Below, piece after piece: positions 9,817-63,175 of a DNA stretch of 64,000 nucleotides. The DNA comes from Burkholderia ambifaria. Lineage in GTDB: Bacteria > Pseudomonadota > Gammaproteobacteria > Burkholderiales > Burkholderiaceae. How positions within the stretch are numbered: position 1 is the first letter of the stretch; each line of letters begins with the position of its first letter. The position numbers and the translations under genes are program-made. The stretch spans positions 31,774-95,773 of the forward strand of contig NZ_LKPJ01000008.1 in assembly GCF_001443045.1 (NCBI RefSeq), read 5' to 3'. A model generated the notes under the pieces. That model ran no database searches, had not been told where the DNA came from, and saw only the letters and a program-made list of their open reading frames with translations.

Positions 9817-10192
9817 GCATCGCCACGAGAGGAAACGGGGCCGTGCGCCACGCGCACAGCCCCGCCGTACAGGGCTTCCAGCGGGACCCGTAACAAATCG
9901 AAAAAAATTTCGAACTTCTGTCGCGGCCCGCGGTCTCTCATTACGGTACGCGGCTGGCGCTGCCGGCGCGTCACCATTCTCCTCTTGTCGTTGTTGCTCC
10001 GGGGCCGTATCCGCCCCGGTTTTTTTTGCCCGCCATTCGTCTGCCGCACCGCAACATCACACCGCCGGGCACGCCGCCCGGGCGACCCCGCCCCTTCCGG
10101 CGCCCGATCCGGAATACCCGCCCCGACTGACCTGCGCGCGCCCCTGCTAGAATCGCAGTTTCCGTCGTTTCCGCCGTTCTTCTACAGACCCT
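9817..10192 (+). other. Gene-free stretch between the lipoprotein gene and metG
   Basis: These 376 bases hold no convincing gene. A hairpin without a T-run (GGGGC..GCACAGCCCC, about 9835-9868) follows the lipoprotein gene. A second, strong terminator stands at 9999-10027. Between them an A-rich patch (9898-9917) and the pyrimidine-rich TTCTCCTCTTGTCGTTG precede the terminator, so a short independent RNA is possible. The metG promoter presumably lies at 10140-10190, where TAGAAT is seen. Confidence 0.4.
9999..10027 (+). terminator. Strong Rho-independent terminator upstream of metG
   Basis: CCGGGGC (9999-10005) pairs with GCCCCGG (10013-10019) around a seven-base loop and is followed by eight T residues. 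It lies about 180 bases after the lipoprotein stop, so it may end that transcript or a separate small RNA. Confidence 0.85.
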
Positions 10193-24780: not shown

Positions 24781-25341
24781 ATGATTCCGCACGACCTCAC
24801 CTTCGTCCTCGGCGGCGCGCGCTCGGGCAAGAGCGCGCACGCCGAGCGGCTCGCCGCCGACAGCGGCCGCCCCGTCACCTATATCGCGACCGCGACGGCG
24901 ACCGCCGCCGATGCCGAATTCGAACGGCGCATCGCGCATCACCGCGCGCGCCGGCCGGCCGACTGGGGCTTCGCCGATGCGAGCGTCGACCTCGCCGGCA
25001 CGTTCGCGCGGCTCGACGATCCGCGCGCGTGCCTGCTGGTCGACTGCCTGACGCTGTGGCTCACGAACCTGCTGTGCCCGCTTGACGGCGAACCGCTCGA
25101 CGATGCGCAGTACGCGGCGCAAGTCGAGCGGCTCGAGCACGCGTTGCGCAACGCACGCGCGCAGGTGATCGTCGTCAGCAACGAAATCGGGCTCGGCGTC
25201 GTGCCGCTCGGGTCGGTCACGCGCCGCTACGTCGACGAGCTCGGACGCCTGAACCAGCGCATCGCCGCGCTCGCGACACGCGTGACACTGCTGGTGGCCG
25301 GGCTGCCGCTCGAGCTCAAGGCCGGAGCGCCGTCATGCTGA
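24781..25341 (+). CDS. cobU: Adenosylcobinamide kinase / cobinamide-phosphate guanylyltransferase
   Basis: Bifunctional enzyme that phosphorylates adenosylcobinamide and transfers GMP to it, activating the nucleotide-loop side of cobalamin. The 186-residue protein has the P-loop GGARSGKSAHAE at residues 11-22, the guanylyltransferase region FERRIAHHRARRPADW near 56, and LLVDCLTLWLTNLL. The ATG 24781 is the natural start although the frame is open far upstream. Its end overlaps the cbiB start by seven bases, opening the operon cobU-cbiB-cobD-btuF. Confidence 0.93.
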   Translation: MIPHDLTFVLGGARSGKSAHAERLAADSGRPVTYIATATATAADAEFERRIAHHRARRPADWGFADASVDLAGTFARLDDPRACLLVDCLTLWLTNLLCPLDGEPLDDAQYAAQVERLEHALRNARAQVIVVSNEIGLGVVPLGSVTRRYVDELGRLNQRIAALATRVTLLVAGLPLELKAGAPSC

Positions 25342-26279
25342 TGCTGTCGCTGCCGGTCGTCGCGATGCTCGCGGTCGCGGCCGCGCTCGTCGATCGCCTC
25401 GTCGGCGAACCGGCCGGCTGGCATCCGCTCGTCGCGTTCGGCCGGCTCGCCGGCCGCATCGAAGGCGCACTGAACACGGGCCGGCGCGGCCGCGCGGTTG
25501 GCGTTGCCGCATGGGTCGCGGCGGTGTTGCCGCCGGTGGCCGTCGCCGCATGGCTCGCGGCCGTGCTGCCGTGGCCGCTCGCGGCCGCGCTGCACGTCGC
25601 GCTGCTATGGTTCGCGCTCGGCGCGAAGAGCCTCGCCGACCACGTCGCGCCGATCGCCGCCGCGCTGCTGCGGCACGATCTCGACGCCGCACGCGCGCTG
25701 ACCGCGCGGATCGTGTCGCGCGACACGAGCGAAGCCGACGAAGGCGCGCTGTCGCGCGCGGCCGTCGAATCGGCGCTCGAAAACGGCAACGATGCGATCT
25801 TCGGCGCGCTCTTCTGGTTCGTCGTCGCGGGCGGCCCCGGCGCGCTGCTGTTCCGGCTCGCGAACACGCTCGATGCGATGTGGGGCTACCGCACGCCACG
25901 CTTCCTGACCTTCGGCTGGGCCGCCGCGCGCCTCGACGATGCACTCAACTGGATTCCCGCGCGCCTCACCGCCGCGAGCTACGCGCTGCTCGGCGACACG
26001 GCCGCCGCGTGGCGCTGCTGGCGCACGCAGGCACGCCACTGGGACAGCCCGAACGCGGGCCCCGTGATGGCCGCGGGCGCCGGCAGCCTGAACGTGCAGC
26101 TCGGCGGCCCGGCCGTCTATCACGGCGAAATCGAAGAGCGCCCCGCGCTCGGCACCGGCGCGCCCGCAACGGCCGTGCACGTCGTCGCCGCGCTGTCGCT
26201 CGTCACGCGCACGCTCGCGCTGTGGCTCGCGCTGCTCGTCGCGAGCGGCGCACTCATCCTCGCTACCCATCATGTCTGA
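25335..26279 (+). CDS. cbiB: Adenosylcobinamide-phosphate synthase CbiB
   Basis: Integral membrane enzyme that attaches the aminopropanol phosphate arm to cobyric acid (called CobD in Pseudomonas nomenclature). The 314-residue protein has several membrane segments and the family motifs DRLVGEPAGWHPLVAFG near the N-terminus, SRDTSEADEGALSRAAVES near residue 130, and ANTLDAMWGYRTPRF. It overlaps cobU by seven bases and the following PLP gene by eight, implying coupled translation. Confidence 0.93.
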   Translation: MLMLSLPVVAMLAVAAALVDRLVGEPAGWHPLVAFGRLAGRIEGALNTGRRGRAVGVAAWVAAVLPPVAVAAWLAAVLPWPLAAALHVALLWFALGAKSLADHVAPIAAALLRHDLDAARALTARIVSRDTSEADEGALSRAAVESALENGNDAIFGALFWFVVAGGPGALLFRLANTLDAMWGYRTPRFLTFGWAAARLDDALNWIPARLTAASYALLGDTAAAWRCWRTQARHWDSPNAGPVMAAGAGSLNVQLGGPAVYHGEIEERPALGTGAPATAVHVVAALSLVTRTLALWLALLVASGALILATHHV

Positions 26280-27291
26280 CGCACGCATCCCGCACGGCGG
26301 CAACCTGCACGAAGCCGCGCGCCGCCACGGCATTCCGTACGACGCCTGGCTCGACCTGTCGACCGGCATCAATCCGGTCGGCTATCCGGTGCCGCCGGTC
26401 CCGGCCGACGCATGGCGCCGGCTGCCCGACGACGGCGATGCGCTCGCCGCGCGCGCGGCCGACTACTATCACGCGCCCGATGCCGAGCACGTGCTGCCGG
26501 TCGCCGGCAGCCAGGCCGCGATCCGCGCGTTGCCCGCGCTGCTGCCGACCGGCGACGCCGGCGTCGCGACACTCGCGTATGGCGAATATGCGCCTGCCTT
26601 CGCGCGCCACGGCCATCGCGTCGTACCGCTCGACATCGACGCGGACGTGTTGCATGCGACGTTGCGTCACGTCATCGTCGGGAATCCGAATAATCCGACC
26701 GCCGAATCCGTGCCAACCGAACGGCTGCTCGGCTGGCATGCGCAGCTGTCGACACGCGGCGGCACGCTGATCGTCGACGAGGCATTCGCGGATACCGGCG
26801 CCACCCCATCGCTCGCGCAGTACACCGATCGTCCGGGTCTCGTCGTGCTGCGCTCGGTCGGCAAGTTTTTCGGGCTTGCCGGCATTCGTGCAGGCTTCGT
26901 GCTCGCGCATCCCGACCTGATCGCCGCATTGCGCGACGTGCTCGGCGCCTGGACCGTCAGCGGCCCCGCGCGTCATGCGGTCGCCGCCGCGTTCGCCGAT
27001 CGCGCATGGCAGGCTGCCGCGCGCGATCGGCTCGCGGCCGACGGCGAACGACTCGCCACGCTGCTGCGCATGCACGGCTTCGCAGTACGTGCGACACCGC
27101 TCTTCAGCTGGACCGACGACCCGCGCGCCGCCGCGCTGCATGCGGCGCTCGCCGCGCGCGGAATCTGGACACGGCACTTCGCGCGACCGTCGAGCATACG
27201 CGTCGGCCTGCCGGGAAGCGAAGCCGAATGGCAGCACATCGCCGACGCGCTCGCGCAGTGCGTCCCGGCGCTGCAACGGGCATCCGCATGA
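26272..27291 (+). CDS. cobD: L-threonine-O-3-phosphate decarboxylase
   Basis: PLP enzyme producing aminopropanol phosphate for CbiB (CobD in Salmonella naming, CobC in Pseudomonas). It is 339 residues, aminotransferase class I/II fold. GGNLHEAARRHG and DLSTGINPVGYPVP near the N-terminus are typical of the family; VGNPNNPT and LIVDEAFADT hold cofactor-binding residues, and SVGKFFGLAGIRAGF carries the Schiff-base lysine. It overlaps cbiB by eight bases and btuF by ATGA. Confidence 0.92.
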   Translation: MSDARIPHGGNLHEAARRHGIPYDAWLDLSTGINPVGYPVPPVPADAWRRLPDDGDALAARAADYYHAPDAEHVLPVAGSQAAIRALPALLPTGDAGVATLAYGEYAPAFARHGHRVVPLDIDADVLHATLRHVIVGNPNNPTAESVPTERLLGWHAQLSTRGGTLIVDEAFADTGATPSLAQYTDRPGLVVLRSVGKFFGLAGIRAGFVLAHPDLIAALRDVLGAWTVSGPARHAVAAAFADRAWQAAARDRLAADGERLATLLRMHGFAVRATPLFSWTDDPRAAALHAALAARGIWTRHFARPSSIRVGLPGSEAEWQHIADALAQCVPALQRASA

Positions 27292-28199
27292 ACGTTCGCC
27301 TGTTCCGCCGGCTACCGCCGCTCGTAACACTCGTCGCGCTCGCGCCTTTCGCTCATGCCGACGTCACGGCACACGACGATGCCGGCAATACCGTCACGCT
27401 GCCTGCGCCGGCGCAACGCGTGATCAGTCTCGCGCCGCATGCGACCGAGCTGGTCTACGCGGCTGGCGGCGGCGCGAAGCTGGTCGGCACCGTCACGTAC
27501 AGCGACTATCCGCCCGCCGCGCAGGCCGTGCCGCGCGTCGGCGACAACAAGGCACTCGACCTCGAGCGGATCGCCGCGCTGAAGCCGGACCTGATCATCG
27601 TCTGGCGGCACGGCAATGCCGAACGGCAGACCGATGCGCTGCGGGCGCTGCACATCCCGCTGTTCTTCAGTGAACCGAAGCATCTCGACGACGTGGCGAC
27701 GTCGCTGCGCCGGCTCGGCACGCTGCTCGGCACGGAACCGGTCGCCGACGCGGCCGCGGCATCGTTTTCGCGCGACATCGCGGCGCTGCGCGCGCGTTAC
27801 GCGACGCGTCCGCCCGTCACGATGTTCTTCCAGGTATGGGACCGGCCGCTGACGACGCTCAACGGCGCGCACCTGTTCAACGACGTCATTGCGCTGTGCG
27901 GCGGCCGCAACGTGTTCGCGGCGCTGAAGCCGCTCGCGCCGACCGTCACCGACGAGGCCGTGCTCGCGGCGAATCCTGAAGCGATCGTGACGACGAGCGC
28001 CGGCGCGACGCGCTCGGATGCGCCGCTGCCGAGCCTCGCGCGCTGGCGTGCCTGGCCCGCGCTGACGGCCGTGGCGCACAACAACCTGTTCGCGATCGAC
28101 GGCGACCTGCTGACCCGTCCGTCGCCGCGGATCGCGCAAGGCGCGGCTGCGCTGTGCGAGGATCTCGACGCCGCGCGGGCGCGGCGGCCGGCGCGCTGA
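27288..28199 (+). CDS. btuF: Periplasmic cobalamin-type ABC substrate-binding protein
   Basis: A 303-residue class III binding protein. It has a signal peptide (LVTLVALAPFAHA), then VISLAPHATELVYAAGGGAKLVG and LKPDLIIVWRHGN, typical of the BtuF/FepB cluster with two lobes joined by a long helix. Its place as the last gene of a cobalamin operon (ATGA overlap with cobD), and a BtuCD pair on the other strand, argue for cobalamin or cobinamide as the ligand, though sequence alone does not exclude a siderophore. The start overlaps the preceding stop, fixing the ATG. Confidence 0.85.
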   Translation: MNVRLFRRLPPLVTLVALAPFAHADVTAHDDAGNTVTLPAPAQRVISLAPHATELVYAAGGGAKLVGTVTYSDYPPAAQAVPRVGDNKALDLERIAALKPDLIIVWRHGNAERQTDALRALHIPLFFSEPKHLDDVATSLRRLGTLLGTEPVADAAAASFSRDIAALRARYATRPPVTMFFQVWDRPLTTLNGAHLFNDVIALCGGRNVFAALKPLAPTVTDEAVLAANPEAIVTTSAGATRSDAPLPSLARWRAWPALTAVAHNNLFAIDGDLLTRPSPRIAQGAAALCEDLDAARARRPAR

Positions 28200-28246: not shown

Positions 28247-28831
28247 CTACGCGTCCCAATGGACGACTTCCCACGGGCGGTCGGCATCATCCATGCGCAG
28301 CCACACGACGCCGCCCGTCGGTACCGGTCGCGACAGCACCGTATCGAGCGGCACGCGCAACGCGTGCGACGCGAGCGCGCGAATCACGCCTGCATGCGTG
28401 AGTGCCCATTGCGGCGCATCGGTCTGCGCGACCGTGCCCGCGATCCGCGCGACACGCGCGGCGAACCGTGCGACGCTTTCGCCGCCGTGCGCGCATGCGT
28501 GCATCAGGTCGGCCGCCCACGCGTCGAGCGCGGCGCGGTCGATGTCGTCCCAGCGCTGCAGCTCCCACGTGCCGAAGTCCATTTCCCGCCAACCCGCGTC
28601 GCACCGCAGCGGCACGTCGAGCGCTTGCGCGAGCCGTTCGGCGACCGACGCGCAGCGCACAAGCGGGCTTGTCCAGACCTGTTCGGGCAACGGCGCTGCG
28701 AGCGCCGCCAGACGCTCGCGCACGGCCTGCGCGCCCGCATCGGCCGATGCCGCGAGCGGCACGTCGCTGCGCCCGTAGCAGACGCCCGGCTCGACATCGA
28801 CGGCCGGATGGCGGATCAGGACGAGGTCCAT
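28247..28831 (-). CDS. cobC: Alpha-ribazole phosphatase (histidine phosphatase family)
   Basis: Removes the phosphate from alpha-ribazole phosphate or adenosylcobalamin phosphate at the end of the nucleotide-loop pathway. The 194-residue phosphoglycerate-mutase-like protein has the catalytic LVLIRHPAV at residues 3-11, followed by CYGRSDVPL as in CobC proteins. WREMDFGTWE and LTHAGVIRAL supply the acid and the second histidine. It is the last gene of the btuC-btuD-cobT-cobS-cobC unit and overlaps the end of cobS by 16 bases. Confidence 0.87.
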   Translation of the reverse strand: MDLVLIRHPAVDVEPGVCYGRSDVPLAASADAGAQAVRERLAALAAPLPEQVWTSPLVRCASVAERLAQALDVPLRCDAGWREMDFGTWELQRWDDIDRAALDAWAADLMHACAHGGESVARFAARVARIAGTVAQTDAPQWALTHAGVIRALASHALRVPLDTVLSRPVPTGGVVWLRMDDADRPWEVVHWDA

Positions 28832-29592
28832 CCGAGCACCACCAGATAGATCGCCAGTTCACTCAGTTGCTGCGCGAAGCCGAGACAGTCGCCGGTATAG
28901 CCGCCGATCCGCTTCACGAAATAGCGGGCCGCCCATGCACGCACGATCACGAGCGCGACGAGGGCCGCAATGCCCGCGCGCCAGTCCGGCCAGATGAGCC
29001 ACGGCAGCCCGAATGCGGCCGCGACCGACGCCGAGCGTGCACCCATGCGCTGCGCGACCGGTTTCGCCTTGCCCTCCGGCCGGACGTAGTCGAGCGACAT
29101 CAGCAGGCTCACGGCCGCCGCGCGGCTCGCCGCATGTGCGGCGATCATCGTCCACGCGGCGCGCAGCGGCGGCATGGCCGCGAGCGCCTGCCATTTCAGG
29201 CCGAGCGCGATCACGAGCGCGACCGCGCCGAACGTGCCGATTCGCGAGTCGTGCATGATGCGCAGCACGTCGTCGCGCGCATAGCCGCCGCCGAACGCAT
29301 CGCAGCTGTCGGCGAGGCCATCCTCGTGGAACGCGCCGGTCGCGAGCAGCGTCGCGGCCATCGACAGCCCAACTGCGATCGACGCGGGCAGCACGCGCAG
29401 CGCCGCGAGATAGACGAGCGCGCCCCACGCGCCGACGCATGCGCCGATCAGCGGGAAGTAACGCGCGGCCTGGTCGAGATCGCCCGCCGCGTAGCCGATC
29501 GCGCGCGGCACCGGCACGCGCGTGAAATAGCCGAGCGCGACGAAGAAGTAGCGCAGTTCGGCGCGTACGCCGCGCGCGTGCTCAGGCGTCAC
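28816..29592 (-). CDS. cobS: Adenosylcobinamide-GDP ribazoletransferase (cobalamin synthase)
   Basis: Membrane enzyme joining adenosylcobinamide-GDP with alpha-ribazole. About 258 residues with many hydrophobic helices. Family motifs are FFVALGYFTRVPVP at the N-terminus, the acidic FHEDGLADSCDAFGGG near residue 75, and MHDSRIGTFGAVALV. No suitable ATG exists: the frame extends to 29799 only as low-quality Arg/Ser sequence, so the GTG at 29592 (MTPEHARGVRAELRYF) is chosen. It overlaps the cobT stop by eleven bases. Confidence 0.9.
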   Translation of the reverse strand: MTPEHARGVRAELRYFFVALGYFTRVPVPRAIGYAAGDLDQAARYFPLIGACVGAWGALVYLAALRVLPASIAVGLSMAATLLATGAFHEDGLADSCDAFGGGYARDDVLRIMHDSRIGTFGAVALVIALGLKWQALAAMPPLRAAWTMIAAHAASRAAAVSLLMSLDYVRPEGKAKPVAQRMGARSASVAAAFGLPWLIWPDWRAGIAALVALVIVRAWAARYFVKRIGGYTGDCLGFAQQLSELAIYLVVLGWTSS

Positions 29593-30637
29593 GATTGTCG
29601 ACGCCTGCGGATTCGAAGCTCGCCATCTCGGTGAGGAACGCGGCCGCCGCGCGCACCAGCGGCAGCGCGAGCGCGGCGCCCGTGCCTTCACCGAGCCGCA
29701 GGTCGAGCGCGAGCAGCGGCTTCGCGCCGAAATGCTCGAGCATGCGCCGGTGGCCGGCCTCGTGCGACGTATGCGAAAACACGCAGTAGTCGCGCACACC
29801 GGGCGCGATGCGCTCGGCGACGAGCAGCGCGGCCGTCGCGATGAAACCGTCGACGAGGATCGTCATCCGCTCGCTCGCGGCCGCGAGATACGCGCCCGTC
29901 ATCATCGCGATCTCGAAGCCGCCGAACGTCGCAAGCACGTCGAGCGGCGCGATCGCGTGCGAATGCCGGACGAGCGCGCGGCCGAGCACCGCGCGCTTGT
30001 GTGCGAGCCCCTGGTCGTCGAGGCCCGTGCCGCGCCCGACGCACGCGTCGATCGGCACGTCGAGCAGCCGGCTCATCAGGCATGCGGCCGACGACGTGTT
30101 CGCGATCCCCATCTCACCGAAGCCGATCACGTTCGTGCCGAGCGATGCGTGCAGACGTACGCGTGCGGCGCCGGCCGCGAGCGCGGTGTTCGCCTCGTCG
30201 CGCGTCATCGCGGGCTCAACCGCGAAGTTGCGCGTGCCGCGCGCGATCGGCAGCGACACGAGCCGGTCGGACACCGGCAGCGGCGACGCGACGCCCGCAT
30301 CGACGATCTCGAGCACGCTCTGCGCGACACCCGAGAACGCATTGATCGCCGCGCCGCCGGCCAGGAAGTTCGCGACCATCTGCGCGGTGACCGACTGCGG
30401 ATACGGGCTCACGCCCTCGGCCGCGATCCCGTGGTCGCCGGCGAACACGATCGTGACGGGGCGCTGCACCTGCGGCCGCTCGGTATGCTGGATCAGGCCG
30501 ATCTGCAGCGCGATCGCCTCGAGCTGGCCAAGACTGCCCGGCGGCTTGGTCTTGTGATCGATCACATGCTGCAGGCGCTTGCGCAGCGTGTCGTCGAGCG
30601 GCGCGATCGCGGGCGGGAAGTCGGTCGGTTTCGTCAT
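29582..30637 (-). CDS. cobT: Nicotinate-nucleotide--dimethylbenzimidazole phosphoribosyltransferase
   Basis: Makes alpha-ribazole phosphate, the lower-ligand nucleotide of cobalamin. The 351-residue protein has the family marks KPPGSLGQLEAIALQIGLIQ, VFAGDHGIAAEGVSPYP, GEMGIANTSSAA with the catalytic-Glu neighbourhood, GRGTGLDDQGLAHK and FGGFEIAMMTGAYL. The stop overlaps the cobS start and a 52-base gap separates it from btuD, so it belongs to the riboswitch-led operon. Confidence 0.95.
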   Translation of the reverse strand: MTKPTDFPPAIAPLDDTLRKRLQHVIDHKTKPPGSLGQLEAIALQIGLIQHTERPQVQRPVTIVFAGDHGIAAEGVSPYPQSVTAQMVANFLAGGAAINAFSGVAQSVLEIVDAGVASPLPVSDRLVSLPIARGTRNFAVEPAMTRDEANTALAAGAARVRLHASLGTNVIGFGEMGIANTSSAACLMSRLLDVPIDACVGRGTGLDDQGLAHKRAVLGRALVRHSHAIAPLDVLATFGGFEIAMMTGAYLAAASERMTILVDGFIATAALLVAERIAPGVRDYCVFSHTSHEAGHRRMLEHFGAKPLLALDLRLGEGTGAALALPLVRAAAAFLTEMASFESAGVDNRDA

Positions 30638-30689: not shown

Positions 30690-31502
30690 TCATCGCCGCT
30701 CGGGCCACGCAGGCAGCAGCGCGTCGCGGCCGTTCTCGCGAATCAGCACGAGCGGATAGCCGAACGCGTCGCTCGCGCGCGCCGGCGTCAGCACGTCGTG
30801 CACGGGGCCCGCCCACGCATGGCCGCGGCCGTCGAGCAACAGCGCGTGCGTCGCGAAACGCCGCGCGAGATTCAGGTCGTGGCACGAGAACAGCACCGTG
30901 CACGGGCCCGCGTCGAGCCACGCGCCCAGCGCGGTCAGGCCATCGATCTGGTGATGCAGGTCGAGATGGGCGAGCGGTTCGTCGAGCAGCATCAGCGGCG
31001 CGTCCTGGCACAGGGTCGCGGCCAGCGCGACGCGCTGCCGCTCGCCGCCCGACAGCGACAGCACGTCGCGCGACGCGAGCTCGGCGAGCCCGAACGTCGC
31101 GAGCGCGGCGCGCGCGGCCGCACGGTCCTCGTCACGCTCCCAGCCCCAGCCACCGAGATACGGAAAGCGGTTGAGCAGCACCGTGTCGAATACCGTCGCG
31201 CTGAACGCGTCGTGCAGTTGTTGCGGCATCAGCGCGCGGCGCCGCGCGAGCGCTTCGGGCGACCACGCGGCGAGCGGCCGGCCGTCGATCTCGATGTGAC
31301 CGCCGGCCGGCTGCTGCAGGCCCGCGAGCGTCGCGAGCAGCGTCGTCTTGCCTGCGCCGTTCGGCCCCGCGACGCACCAGATCTCGCCGGGCCGGAACTC
31401 TTGCGTGAAGCCGTCGAGCAGCGTCCGTGCGCCGGCCTTCAGCGTCAGGTCGACCGCCGCGCAGGCCATGTCGCCGCCGGTGTGCGATACGGTGTGCGTC
31501 AT
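30690..31502 (-). CDS. btuD: Cobalamin-type ABC transporter ATP-binding protein
   Basis: ATPase of a type II ABC importer, 270 residues. Walker A is GPNGAGKTTLLATLAGL near residue 46, the Q-loop follows at PQQLHDAF, the signature reads LSGGERQRVALA, Walker B PLMLLDEPLAHLD, and the H-loop histidine lies in SCHDLNLARRFA. The ATG overlaps the btuC stop by four bases. The riboswitch and the cobT-cobS-cobC neighbours indicate corrinoid rather than iron-siderophore transport. Confidence 0.9.
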   Translation of the reverse strand: MTHTVSHTGGDMACAAVDLTLKAGARTLLDGFTQEFRPGEIWCVAGPNGAGKTTLLATLAGLQQPAGGHIEIDGRPLAAWSPEALARRRALMPQQLHDAFSATVFDTVLLNRFPYLGGWGWERDEDRAAARAALATFGLAELASRDVLSLSGGERQRVALAATLCQDAPLMLLDEPLAHLDLHHQIDGLTALGAWLDAGPCTVLFSCHDLNLARRFATHALLLDGRGHAWAGPVHDVLTPARASDAFGYPLVLIRENGRDALLPAWPERR

Positions 31503-32518
31503 CGCATCGGTCTCCTCAGCAACATCCACAGGAACACCGGCACGCCGATCAACGCGGTCATCACGCCGACCGGCAATTGCACGGGCGCGATCGCGGTGCG
31601 CGCGAGCAGGTCCGCCGCCATCACGCCGCCGCCGCCCGCGAGCATCGCGGCGGGCAGCAGCATGCGCTGGTCGTTGCCGAATGCGAGCCGCAGCGCGTGC
31701 GGCACGACGAGGCCGACGAAGCCGATCGTGCCGGCCGTCGTCACCGCGGCCGCGGCGGCCAGCGACGCGACGAGGTAGATCCGCATGCGCAGTCTCGCGA
31801 CCGGCACGCCAAGCGCATGTGCAGTCGCGTCGCCGCGCAGCAGCACGTTGAGTTGCGGCGCGGCCGGCAGCGCGACGCAGGCGGCCACCAGCAGCGCACC
31901 CCATGCGAACCAGGGCGCCGTCACGCCGTTCAGGTCGCCCGTCAGCCAGAAGATGATGCCGCGCAGCCGCGCATCGGGCGCGAGCGACAGCAGCAGCGTG
32001 ACGAGCGCGCCCCACCCGGCCGCGATCACGACACCGGTGAGCAGCAGCCGCGGCGACGCATCGCGCGAATCGCCGCGCCACAGCTCGCGGCGAGCCAGCC
32101 CGAGCACGAGCGCGACCGACGCGAGCGAGCCGGCGAACGCGGACGCATCGACGAGCCACCACGCGGCGCCCGCGATCATCGCGACGAGCGCGAAGCCCGC
32201 CGCGCCGCCCGACACGCCGAGCACGTACGGCTCCGCGAGCGGATTGCGCAGCAGCACCTGCAGCAGCGCACCGGCGAGCGCGAGCAGCGCGCCGCAGGCG
32301 AAACCCGCGAGCGCGCGCGGCAGCCGCAGCGTGCGCACGATGTCGGCGAACAGCGCGTCGCCGCCGTGCGGCACGAGCGACGCGAGCGCCTGCCACGGCG
32401 ACATCGGCACGCTGCCGATCGACAGCGACGCGACGAACAGCAGCGCGACCACGGCCGCAAGCACGGCCCAGATCGCGGCGGCACGCGCGGCGCTCATGCG
32501 GCGTACGGCATCGCGCAT
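31499..32518 (-). CDS. btuC: Cobalamin-type ABC transporter permease (FecCD family)
   Basis: Inner-membrane permease, about 339 residues with some ten membrane helices. FecCD-family motifs include TLRLPRALAGFACGALLALAG, RNPLAEPYVLGVSGGAA and the late GFVGLVVPHALRL that contacts the ATPase. The frame continues upstream to 32683, but residues before Met at 32518 (or Met at 32497) do not belong to the permease: they resemble the C-terminus of BtuB (see the pseudogene entry). No strong ribosome site distinguishes the two starts. Confidence 0.88.
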   Translation of the reverse strand: MRDAVRRMSAARAAAIWAVLAAVVALLFVASLSIGSVPMSPWQALASLVPHGGDALFADIVRTLRLPRALAGFACGALLALAGALLQVLLRNPLAEPYVLGVSGGAAGFALVAMIAGAAWWLVDASAFAGSLASVALVLGLARRELWRGDSRDASPRLLLTGVVIAAGWGALVTLLLSLAPDARLRGIIFWLTGDLNGVTAPWFAWGALLVAACVALPAAPQLNVLLRGDATAHALGVPVARLRMRIYLVASLAAAAAVTTAGTIGFVGLVVPHALRLAFGNDQRMLLPAAMLAGGGGVMAADLLARTAIAPVQLPVGVMTALIGVPVFLWMLLRRPMR

Positions 32519-32542
32519 GACGCGCGACAGGTCGGCTGACCA

Positions 32543-32922
32543 CTGTTGCCGACCGAGCGCGGCACGGGCGTCGCGCTTCGGCGCGTTGTAGGCATACGCA
32601 AGCTCGTTATCCTTGTCGAACGGGTTGTTGCGCCGCACGCCGGCCATACCGGCATGCAACGGCCGCGATCCGCCGGGCCGCACCTTCGCGCGACCGGCGT
32701 TCTGCGCAATATAGTGGAAGGTGCCGCATCGGGTCGATCGGCGTGGTGACGACGAGCGTCGGCGCCGATCCCGGACGAATCGGCGTCCGCCGCGGCCTGC
32801 GCGACGGCGGCAAGCGGTACGCCGCGGCGTGCGCCGAATGCCGTGCGGACGATTGGGGTCAGCATCGAAGACAAGTCCCGTGAAGCACTGCGCGCCCCGC
32901 TTCCCCGCAGGCCGCGCGTCAT
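32543..32922 (-). pseudogene. btuB: Remnant of a btuB TonB-dependent receptor gene
   Basis: About 380 bases between riboswitch and btuC contain scraps of a receptor gene that would normally be about 1.8 kb. From 32922 or 32865 a signal-peptide-like segment reads GVPLAAVAQAAADADSSG. After a frame change, GSAPTLVVTTPIDP (about 32729-32770) looks like the TonB-box/plug start of BtuB (TLVVTA). Further on, NNPFDKDNELAYAYNAPKR (about 32571-32627) matches the receptor C-terminus, where BtuB has NLFDKDYE..YGYxTxGR. Most of the plug and barrel are missing. The location between a cobalamin riboswitch and btuC is where a functional btuB would be expected. The identification rests on short motifs. Confidence 0.55.
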
Positions 32923-32939
32923 GAAGCCGTGCTGGCTCC

Positions 32940-33180
32940 TCGCCTCGGCCGGTATCCGGGCTGGCGGCGTACCGGCTCGCCTTCCCGCGCGTGTCACGCG
33001 CAGTGGCCCGCGCCCGCGTGCGACCTGCACGCGAAACGCGCCCGAGCCGGCCTGCGTCACGCGACGCGGCCGCTTACCGTTGCGGGGGCAGCGCAGGTTG
33101 GCGATCTCCGGGCGGAGCGCGCGGCCTGCTTCCCGTTTAGTTTAACCGCGCGACGCACGCGCGAGCACCGAGGCGGCGCC
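32940..33180 (-). ncRNA. Cobalamin riboswitch (AdoCbl class)
   Basis: Read on the minus strand, the conserved pieces occur in order: GGTGC (33165-33169), GGGAAGCAGG (33125-33134), the core CGCTGCCCCCGCAACGGTAA (within 33071-33093), and the B12 box AGCCCGGATACCGGCC (32947-32962). These are diagnostic of the cobalamin aptamer, and the roughly 240-base span is normal. It precedes the btuB remnant and the btuC-btuD-cobT-cobS-cobC operon, so corrinoid should repress that operon. Exact ends and the expression platform are not resolved; since btuB is eroded, the original sequestered ribosome site may no longer control anything useful. Confidence 0.9.
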
Positions 33181-33363
33181 AGTTTAGGAGCCGGCCGCGC
33201 GAGCGTCAAGAAAGCGGCCGGACGCGTGCCTGGCGCGCGCCGCGAACACGCCGGAGCCGTGTATTCGCGGCAAGAAGCCGGGGTGTTACGACTGGAAACG
33301 TTACAGATGTCGGAATGCGCGTTATTCCGCGCTAAAATGCTGGGTCTTTAGAGGACGCAGCAG
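33181..33363. promoter_or_regulatory. Divergent promoter region, riboswitch operon / zapB-like gene
   Basis: No gene is seen. The minus-strand promoter of the riboswitch transcript must lie here. On the plus strand a TAAAAT box (33333-33338) and the ribosome site GAGGA stand before the zapB-like ATG; GGAATGCGCGTTATTCC (33312-33328) is a short inverted repeat of unknown meaning. Confidence 0.4.
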
Positions 33364-34104: not shown

Positions 34105-34287
34105 AGCTTCCCTGCCTGGTTCGCCAAGGTCATATATTCCTTGAACCAATGCCATGTGCACGGTTGCGGAAATTTGTAGCACGGGCGCGCGCGTCACTCT
34201 GTCTGATGTACCCGATGTGCTGCTAACTGCGACCAATTCTGAACCCCAGGTTCAGGATGCCGGCCTAGCGGCCAAGGCGGGGGCCTA
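34105..34287 (+). ncRNA. ssrS: 6S RNA
   Basis: The roughly 180 bases after zapA have the features of 6S RNA, which binds sigma-70 RNA polymerase as an open-promoter mimic. The closing stem pairs CCCTGCCTGG (34110-34119) with CCAAGGCGGGG (34272-34282). An internal hairpin such as TCTGAACCCCAGGTTCAGGA sits near the 3' side, equivalent to the E. coli CTTGAACCAAGGGTTCAAGG, followed by GCCGGCCTAGCGGCC. CCTTGAACCAATGCCATGTGC is on the 5' side. Position just after zapA is the conserved location. Ends are approximate, and processing sites cannot be read here. Confidence 0.85.
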
Positions 34288-62881: not shown

Positions 62882-63109
62882 ACACCGGGCGCGCCCGCGT
62901 CCCCCGCTGCGCGCCGCCGTGTCACATCCGTGGCATCGCGGCGGTTTACAGTGGGGCGCGGGATGCCTTATGCTTGCGCACATGAACCGCTTCCTGTCCG
63001 CTCTCCGACGTCGCCGCTCGCCGCTCCGCCCGGATGCCGCCGGCTCGTCACGGACTCGCGCGTAACCCTTCTCCGCTTCACCGGTTACGCACAAGCTGTT
63101 CGATCCACC
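62882..63109 (+). promoter_or_regulatory. Leader region of the aminotransferase gene with Arg-rich short frame
   Basis: A short frame, ATG at 62970 (or 62982) to TAA at 63063-63065, encodes about 31 residues with eight arginines (for example [11 protein letters not shown]). Its stop codon lies in the 5' arm of an 8-bp inverted repeat, GCGTAACC (63060-63067) and GGTTACGC (63083-63090). A terminator follows at 63110. The layout resembles a transcription attenuator sensing arginine, but GC-rich random frames are also Arg-rich, no good ribosome site is seen and no clear antiterminator pairing was found. Confidence 0.35.
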
Positions 63110-63132
63110 AGCCACGGCCTTCCGTGGCTTTT
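63110..63132 (+). terminator. Rho-independent terminator before the aminotransferase gene
   Basis: AGCCACGG and CCGTGGCT form a perfect 8-bp stem with a four-base loop and six T residues, 44 bases before the next ATG. It ends an upstream or leader transcript. Confidence 0.8.
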
Positions 63133-63175
63133 TTATTGCCCGTTTCCCTTTCAACGCCCGCTGGAGTCTGCTGCC

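Follow-up and report, generated by a model that had tools for sequence, protein, structure and literature searches.

Background

The closest described counterpart of the locus reported here lies ahead of the ppe2 gene of Mycobacterium tuberculosis, where a B12 riboswitch is followed by an upstream open reading frame (the uORF uPPE2) and an AUGA overlap, and where, according to the pertinent passages of the report, termination-reinitiation takes place and expression depends on translation of the uORF (PMC11260477). The same passages state that early stops lowered expression only gradually and that Rho was judged not to be responsible for the loss (PMC11260477). The AdoCbl riboswitch of Escherichia coli btuB, as summarized in the section of the source that deals with it, controls the initiation of translation and also brings about Rho-dependent termination (PMC11162775). 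For gene pairs that overlap by ATGA, termination-reinitiation has been described, and 13 of the 14 pairs examined were strictly coupled (PMC6728339). A literature search that covered titles and the openings of abstracts, with subscription journals mostly outside its coverage, found no account in Burkholderia of the arrangement described below.

The B12 locus and its btuB remnant

We use "the window" for the whole stretch of 64,000 nucleotides of Burkholderia ambifaria DNA that was analysed; its relevant features are collected in Table 1. The covariance-model match to the Rfam Cobalamin family exceeds the gathering score of 31.5 bits (E 1.3e-5), spans the full model (positions 1-189 of 189) and encloses the B12 box, in agreement with the conserved minus-strand blocks that an earlier, sequence-only reading of this DNA had picked out. 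From the end of the riboswitch to the btuC ATG (32497) the distance is 432 nt, of which 368 are counted from an ATG at 32865. The GGGGAA loop of a hairpin in the centroid fold is a candidate kissing-loop partner of the CCCC loop of the aptamer, a predicted pairing; the fold of the whole expression-platform stretch is no better than that of shuffled sequences (z 0.58). Downstream, btuC, btuD, cobT, cobS and cobC follow on the strand of the riboswitch, as that reading had proposed, with btuF, cobD and cbiB beyond them on the opposite strand; cobT, cobS and cobC score above their NCBIfam cut-offs and the assignments of btuC and btuD are weaker. Among the matches listed for btuD, all NCBIfam ABC families fall below cut-off, and the name was given by position and the Pfam ABC_tran domain.

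Table 1. Features of the window around the riboswitch and the adjoining B12 genes
Feature	Position	Strand	Evidence
Cobalamin riboswitch aptamer	32930..33187	-	RF00174, 36.4 bits
Hairpin with GGGGAA loop, candidate expression platform	32890..32917	-	centroid fold
Open frame of the remnant (123 codons, then TGA), spanning the old btuB start and the btuC start	32494..32865	-	ORF; no Pfam family
btuB head (signal-peptide region)	32777..32865	-	remnant nt 1-89 = L082 btuB nt 1-89, 84% identity
Inner btuB piece	32649..32738	-	remnant nt 128-217 = L082 btuB nt 1472-1565, 80%
btuB tail + spacer before btuC	32498..32628	-	remnant nt 238-368 = L082 nt 1823-1953, 80%
ATGA, btuC start overlapping the stop of the remnant frame	32494..32497	-	sequence
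btuC, B12 ABC transporter permease	31499..32497	-	FecCD PF01032; NCBIfam BtuC ranks first with 219.6 bits, under the cut-off of 334
btuD, ABC transporter ATPase; start overlaps btuC end	30690..31508	-	PF00005 (ABC_tran)
cobT	29582..30637	-	TIGR03160 above cut-off
cobS (start uncertain)	28816..29673	-	NF001277 above cut-off
cobC, alpha-ribazole phosphatase	28247..28831	-	TIGR03162 above cut-off
btuF, periplasmic B12-binding protein	27285..28199	+	PF01497; NF002894 193 bits, below cut-off 234
cobD	26272..27291	+	TIGR01140 above cut-off
cbiB	25335..26279	+	TIGR00380 above cut-off

When the 368 nt before btuC are compared by blastn with the intact btuB of a relative (L082), three pieces of the gene are recovered in order, with E values from 6e-18 to 2e-30 and with the tail piece two frames away from the head piece. 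By these matches, the signal-peptide-like piece and FDKDNELAYAYN are the opposite ends of btuB, each in a different frame, as the sequence-only reading had it; TLVVTTP, which it had counted as part of the same eroded gene, is present in the DNA but lies outside every blastn piece, and its origin from btuB is not confirmed. What that reading overlooked is that an open frame runs from the old btuB start codon through the remnant and ends on the start codon of btuC.

The genome to which the window belongs holds six cobalamin riboswitches, two of them on opposite strands about 130 nt apart (G000:C14:419936-420564). Other RNAs in the window are the Burkholderia sRNAs BcKCsr7 and ncS16 and the 6S RNA, at 62968-63134, 9946-10028 and 34106-34287.

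Exchange of the BtuB receptor

The genome of the window encodes an intact BtuB of 642 residues on another contig (C36), with a cobalamin riboswitch (117 bits) about 210 nt upstream. It consists of plug and beta-barrel domains (PF07715 and PF00593), and its best six PDB matches are all BtuB structures, e.g., 1nqf and 1nqe. Its TIGR01779 score of about 344-345 bits falls below the curated cut-off of 599.7 bits, which is also missed by the intact in-place BtuB of L050 (431 bits) and passed by one of 14 control genomes. Uptake through another receptor, which had been offered as one of two explanations of the eroded gene, is supported by this second, intact BtuB with a riboswitch of its own.

The same exchange is seen in most of the genus genomes searched. 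Each of 65 genus genomes has exactly one TIGR01779 match (E <= 1e-40, at most 16 candidates per genome being scored), which by-eye assignment against the btuC matches places beside btuC in 22 genomes; the other 43, the genome of the window included, have a different BtuB elsewhere, and in all 43 this second match is free of internal stops. Inspection by eye found a riboswitch scoring 110 bits or more no farther than 0.7 kb from the second-type BtuB in 42 of these 43, the exception being the 82% complete G057, and in none of the 22 genomes with the in-place gene. Among 200 genomes drawn from the family, with at most six candidates per genome scored, 168 have a match at E <= 1e-60, single in 166 and double in two (G129 and G208), so that B12 receptors in the family mostly obey a one-or-the-other rule. 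The second type occurs in 33 genomes of this draw, 18 from the genus and 15 from other genera, with one match each. When 40 receptors of the second type were placed in a tree (25 of the 43 from the genus and 15 from other genera), the genus and the others fell on separate sides with a support of 93.

The absence of btuB from its place could by itself be read as loss or reduction of B12 uptake in the strains concerned, which we regard as extremely unlikely in view of the stop-free second receptor and of the B. cenocepacia gene BCAM0491, labelled vitamin B12 receptor BtuB in an expression table whose accompanying passage says nothing of the other btuB (PMC3759415). BCAM0491 is probably the second-type BtuB found here. 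Its BCAM number denotes chromosome 2 of B. cenocepacia. Judged by gene content, then, the in-place receptor is displaced by a second BtuB and uptake is not lost, since all 43 genomes without the in-place gene have the second one.

A co-occurrence test on the starred branches of the locus tree yielded four pairs, each of them opposite (p 0.125), a number too small to reach significance. A plasmid search returned seven records whose best matches were confined to positions 232-454 of the query, i.e., the riboswitch. G064 and G063 have nearly identical remnants (L086 and L091) and nearly identical second BtuBs (L198 and L206), yet the locus tree separates the two genomes and groups G063 with relatives that have an intact btuB; joint transfer or recombination is a possible source of the near-identity.

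Reduced btuB loci in the genus

We compared 63 loci (62 fetched stretches and the window) from the 65 genus genomes, leaving out G046, in which the btuC stretch reads N, and G057, which has no btuC match in place. Twenty-two have an intact btuB and 41 are reduced. In the reduced loci the riboswitch is present at gathering score in 40, the window included, and lacking in L093, a stretch resembling the GGGGAA hairpin can be seen by eye in the same number and is likewise absent from L093, and the btuB start codon with M[LP]TPI is found in all 41. The remnants range from 68 to 786 nt, with frames of 23-211 codons, and their sequences are dissimilar between classes.

By anatomy we have grouped the remnants into about five classes, a grouping of our own: class A, in which a junction falls near btuB 1450-1490 (13 loci including the window); class B, of 95 nt, made up of the head to about nt 27 and the last ~75 nt (22 loci); class C, of 218-219 nt (3 loci); class D, of 68 nt (1 locus); and class E, of 416 nt (2 loci that differ at two positions and whose genomes are set apart in the tree). 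In the piece-by-piece mapping, which covered three of the 22 class B loci and all 19 loci of the other classes, a btuB stretch near 1226-1296 turned up in two class C loci only, L079 and L105. In L104 (G010) and L105 (G058) the btuC match is split into two parts that share a few residues, through a frameshift or a sequencing error.

On the locus tree the intact and reduced states require seven changes, at least four of them on starred branches, and a single clade of reduced loci is rejected (AU test, p 2.3e-7), although recombination of the locus can produce the same picture. On this test and on the btuB stretch that L079 and L105 carry, we discarded the idea that all reduced loci go back to one deletion. 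From the tree and the piece mapping, the reduced state seems to have arisen several separate times, or to have spread by transfer. The recent reduction that had been suggested for the window is not borne out: the state is shared by 41 of 63 loci, and the pieces in the window are only 80-84% identical to intact btuB. Relatives do carry a receptor-less stretch at this site, as a conserved element unrelated to the receptor gene would lead one to expect, but it is derived from btuB and variable in length.

The remnant frame and the btuC start

In 36 of the 41 reduced loci, the window among them, the frame that opens at the old btuB start leaves the btuB frame and ends in the TGA of an ATGA at the btuC start. 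The remaining five comprise two ATGA chains, one fusion and two loci with neither. In L045 the stop of the remnant frame lies in an ATGA from which a frame of 32 codons starts, itself ending in an ATGA at btuC; in L059 (reverse strand) btuC is reached through two intermediate ATGA-linked mini-frames, the first of which is a copied piece of the btuC start lying 223 nt ahead of that start; in L068 the remnant is fused in frame to btuC; and in L065 and L105 the remnant frame stops 122 and 45 nt short. In the intact loci, of which 20 of 22 were measured in the frame and Shine-Dalgarno comparisons (L101 and L103 were not parsed), btuB stops 24-128 nt upstream of btuC. L093 has lost the riboswitch and kept the ATGA overlap.

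The Shine-Dalgarno sequence of btuC is mostly weak in the reduced loci, and a comparison of 11 intact loci with the 38 reduced ones that do not belong to class C shows it to be weaker in the latter (Mann-Whitney p 0.003, kinship ignored). Both uncoupled loci belong to class C, whose three members (L065, L105 and L079) have GGAGG before btuC, the strongest Shine-Dalgarno among reduced loci.

In related genera, 51 named loci were screened (some records being labelled Burkholderia sp.), 36 with btuB in place and 15 without. Unlike Burkholderia, 13 of these 15 are without a riboswitch match at gathering score (L140, L144, L149, L150, L155, L162, L164, L173, L182, L184, L186, L187 and L188). The two that keep it, L170 and L160, each have two mini-frames, joined by an ATGA in L170 and separated by a 9 nt gap in L160, and in each the second ends by an ATGA whose ATG lies upstream in the btuC frame and is a candidate start of that gene.

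Chance or selection

One account of these frames is that the remnant is plain decaying btuB, that its frame into btuC is the chance legacy of a few ancestral deletions, and that btuC starts alone or from another promoter. The few independent deletion classes favour it, and so does the GC-rich DNA, which tends to keep frames open: among the 18 remnants longer than 150 nt, three (L056, L085 and L086) are free of stops in all three frames, and the stop-free frames of all 22 class B loci are not unusual, 176 of 1000 neutral simulations (18%) being equally stop-free. Under a null model of random single deletions in 11 intact relatives, however, only 14-33% of trials, depending on length, end directly on btuC, and 14 of the 18 distinct remnant lengths have at least one locus that does, against 4.3 expected (length 219 borrowing its chance from 218, and 218 scored as coupled although L065, one of its two loci, is not). 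The probability would be 2e-6 if the lengths were independent; since the 41 loci fall into about five deletion classes and are not independent, we prefer the chance product over the five classes, each at its main state, which is 0.002. ATGA chains arise in at most 0.1% of random deletions, and the two chains and the fusion connect three of the five misfits to btuC. Gaps whose length is a multiple of 3 are also enriched within the remnants, at 15 of 33 against 2 of 36 upstream in 11 pairs, some sharing rows; with non-overlapping pairs only, the support is weak, the counts being 6 of 13 against 2 of 20 (p 0.035), and the frame is kept in 4 of 5 (p 0.045). The retained riboswitch and the conserved start region likewise speak against mere decay, and we consider an origin of the frames by chance unlikely but by no means negligible. 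Taken together, the evidence makes selection on the remnant frame likely, short of proof.

Selection on a frame might also mean that it encodes a small functional protein, for which the conserved start and the length of some frames, the longest that ends at btuC having 211 codons, could be cited. Substitutions in the remnants show no consistent codon-position bias, the window's remnant gave no match when scanned against Pfam, and the range in length and dissimilarity between classes are hard to reconcile with a common product. In class B, nt 1-21 have a mean identity of 97% and nt 22-95 one of 79%, below the third positions of btuC (84%), with no coding pattern and with the third codon position the most conserved. 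The btuC identities were computed on unaligned letters and were used for this 22-locus class, where 97% at codon positions 1-2 argues against a shift, and not for classes A and "old". A functional peptide is therefore very unlikely; from these comparisons the peptide looks unconstrained and the frame mostly kept.

The remnant as a putative relay

The reading that we favour, with some confidence, is that the receptor has been displaced and that the btuB remnant serves as a translated relay of riboswitch control to btuC. The riboswitch, the btuB pieces, the receptor exchange, the frame with its overlap and the mostly weak btuC Shine-Dalgarno are read from the genomes directly; we infer translation of the remnant, reinitiation, its control by B12 and any involvement of Rho. 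A second BtuB with its own riboswitch would have taken over B12 uptake and made the btuB beside btuC dispensable; deletions would then have removed most of the gene and spared the riboswitch-controlled start codon, the surviving remnants being mostly those whose frame stops at the btuC start or reaches it through ATGA chains or fusion. When B12 is absent, ribosomes would begin at the former btuB start codon, read through the remnant without making a meaningful product, terminate on the start codon of btuC and initiate anew there. When it is present, the riboswitch would block the old start, no ribosomes would be delivered to btuC, and Rho may terminate the untranslated transcript early. The simplest account is thus an exchange of receptors with later decay under a single constraint: since riboswitch control would fall on the foremost start codon, btuC would be reached mainly by ribosomes passing through the remnant. 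Against this reading speak L093, with its overlap but no riboswitch, the 13 loci of related genera that have no riboswitch match, the expression-platform fold that does not surpass shuffled sequences, and the gradual effect of early stops in ppe2. Whether several lineages have in this way discarded all of btuB except the riboswitch-controlled start and any frame or peptide that delivers ribosomes to btuC, even through ATGA chains, seems to us about evenly balanced.

It could also be that the riboswitch acts on transcription only, by Rho or attenuation, and that translation of the remnant keeps Rho off without reinitiation at the ATGA, much as the Rho-dependent termination triggered by the E. 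coli riboswitch might suggest (PMC11162775). Such a mechanism would not favour a stop exactly on the btuC start, since one 24-128 nt upstream, as in the intact loci, would suffice, and in the relevant passages of the ppe2 report Rho is concluded not to be the cause of the loss of expression (PMC11260477); we think it quite improbable.

Pseudogenes are usually taken for debris. If the relay is read rightly, a gene without protein function has retained a reading frame that serves as a conduit from a riboswitch to the neighbouring gene, a case of how translational coupling can constrain the decay of an operon.

Comparison with known systems

The predicted relay resembles that of ppe2 in its B12 riboswitch, its out-of-frame upstream ORF and its AUGA stop/start overlap, the ORF with its overlap being seen in the 36 coupled loci. 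The downstream gene of the ppe2 system is without a Shine-Dalgarno sequence; here its energy is +0.3 kcal/mol in the window, 0.3 to -6.3 in the other reduced loci and -10.0 in class C. The exact overlap need not be essential, because early stops in ppe2 reduced expression only gradually. Unlike that of ppe2, the upstream ORF described here derives from a receptor gene, has seemingly formed several times and feeds a transporter operon, and it suggests a route by which riboswitch-uORF relays can arise. With E. coli btuB the locus shares a cobalamin riboswitch before the btuB start; the difference is that the window keeps the start and the receptor gene behind it is gone. The stop/start overlap is the same as that of the ATGA gene pairs, but those consist of two real genes, whereas here the upstream frame is a remnant.
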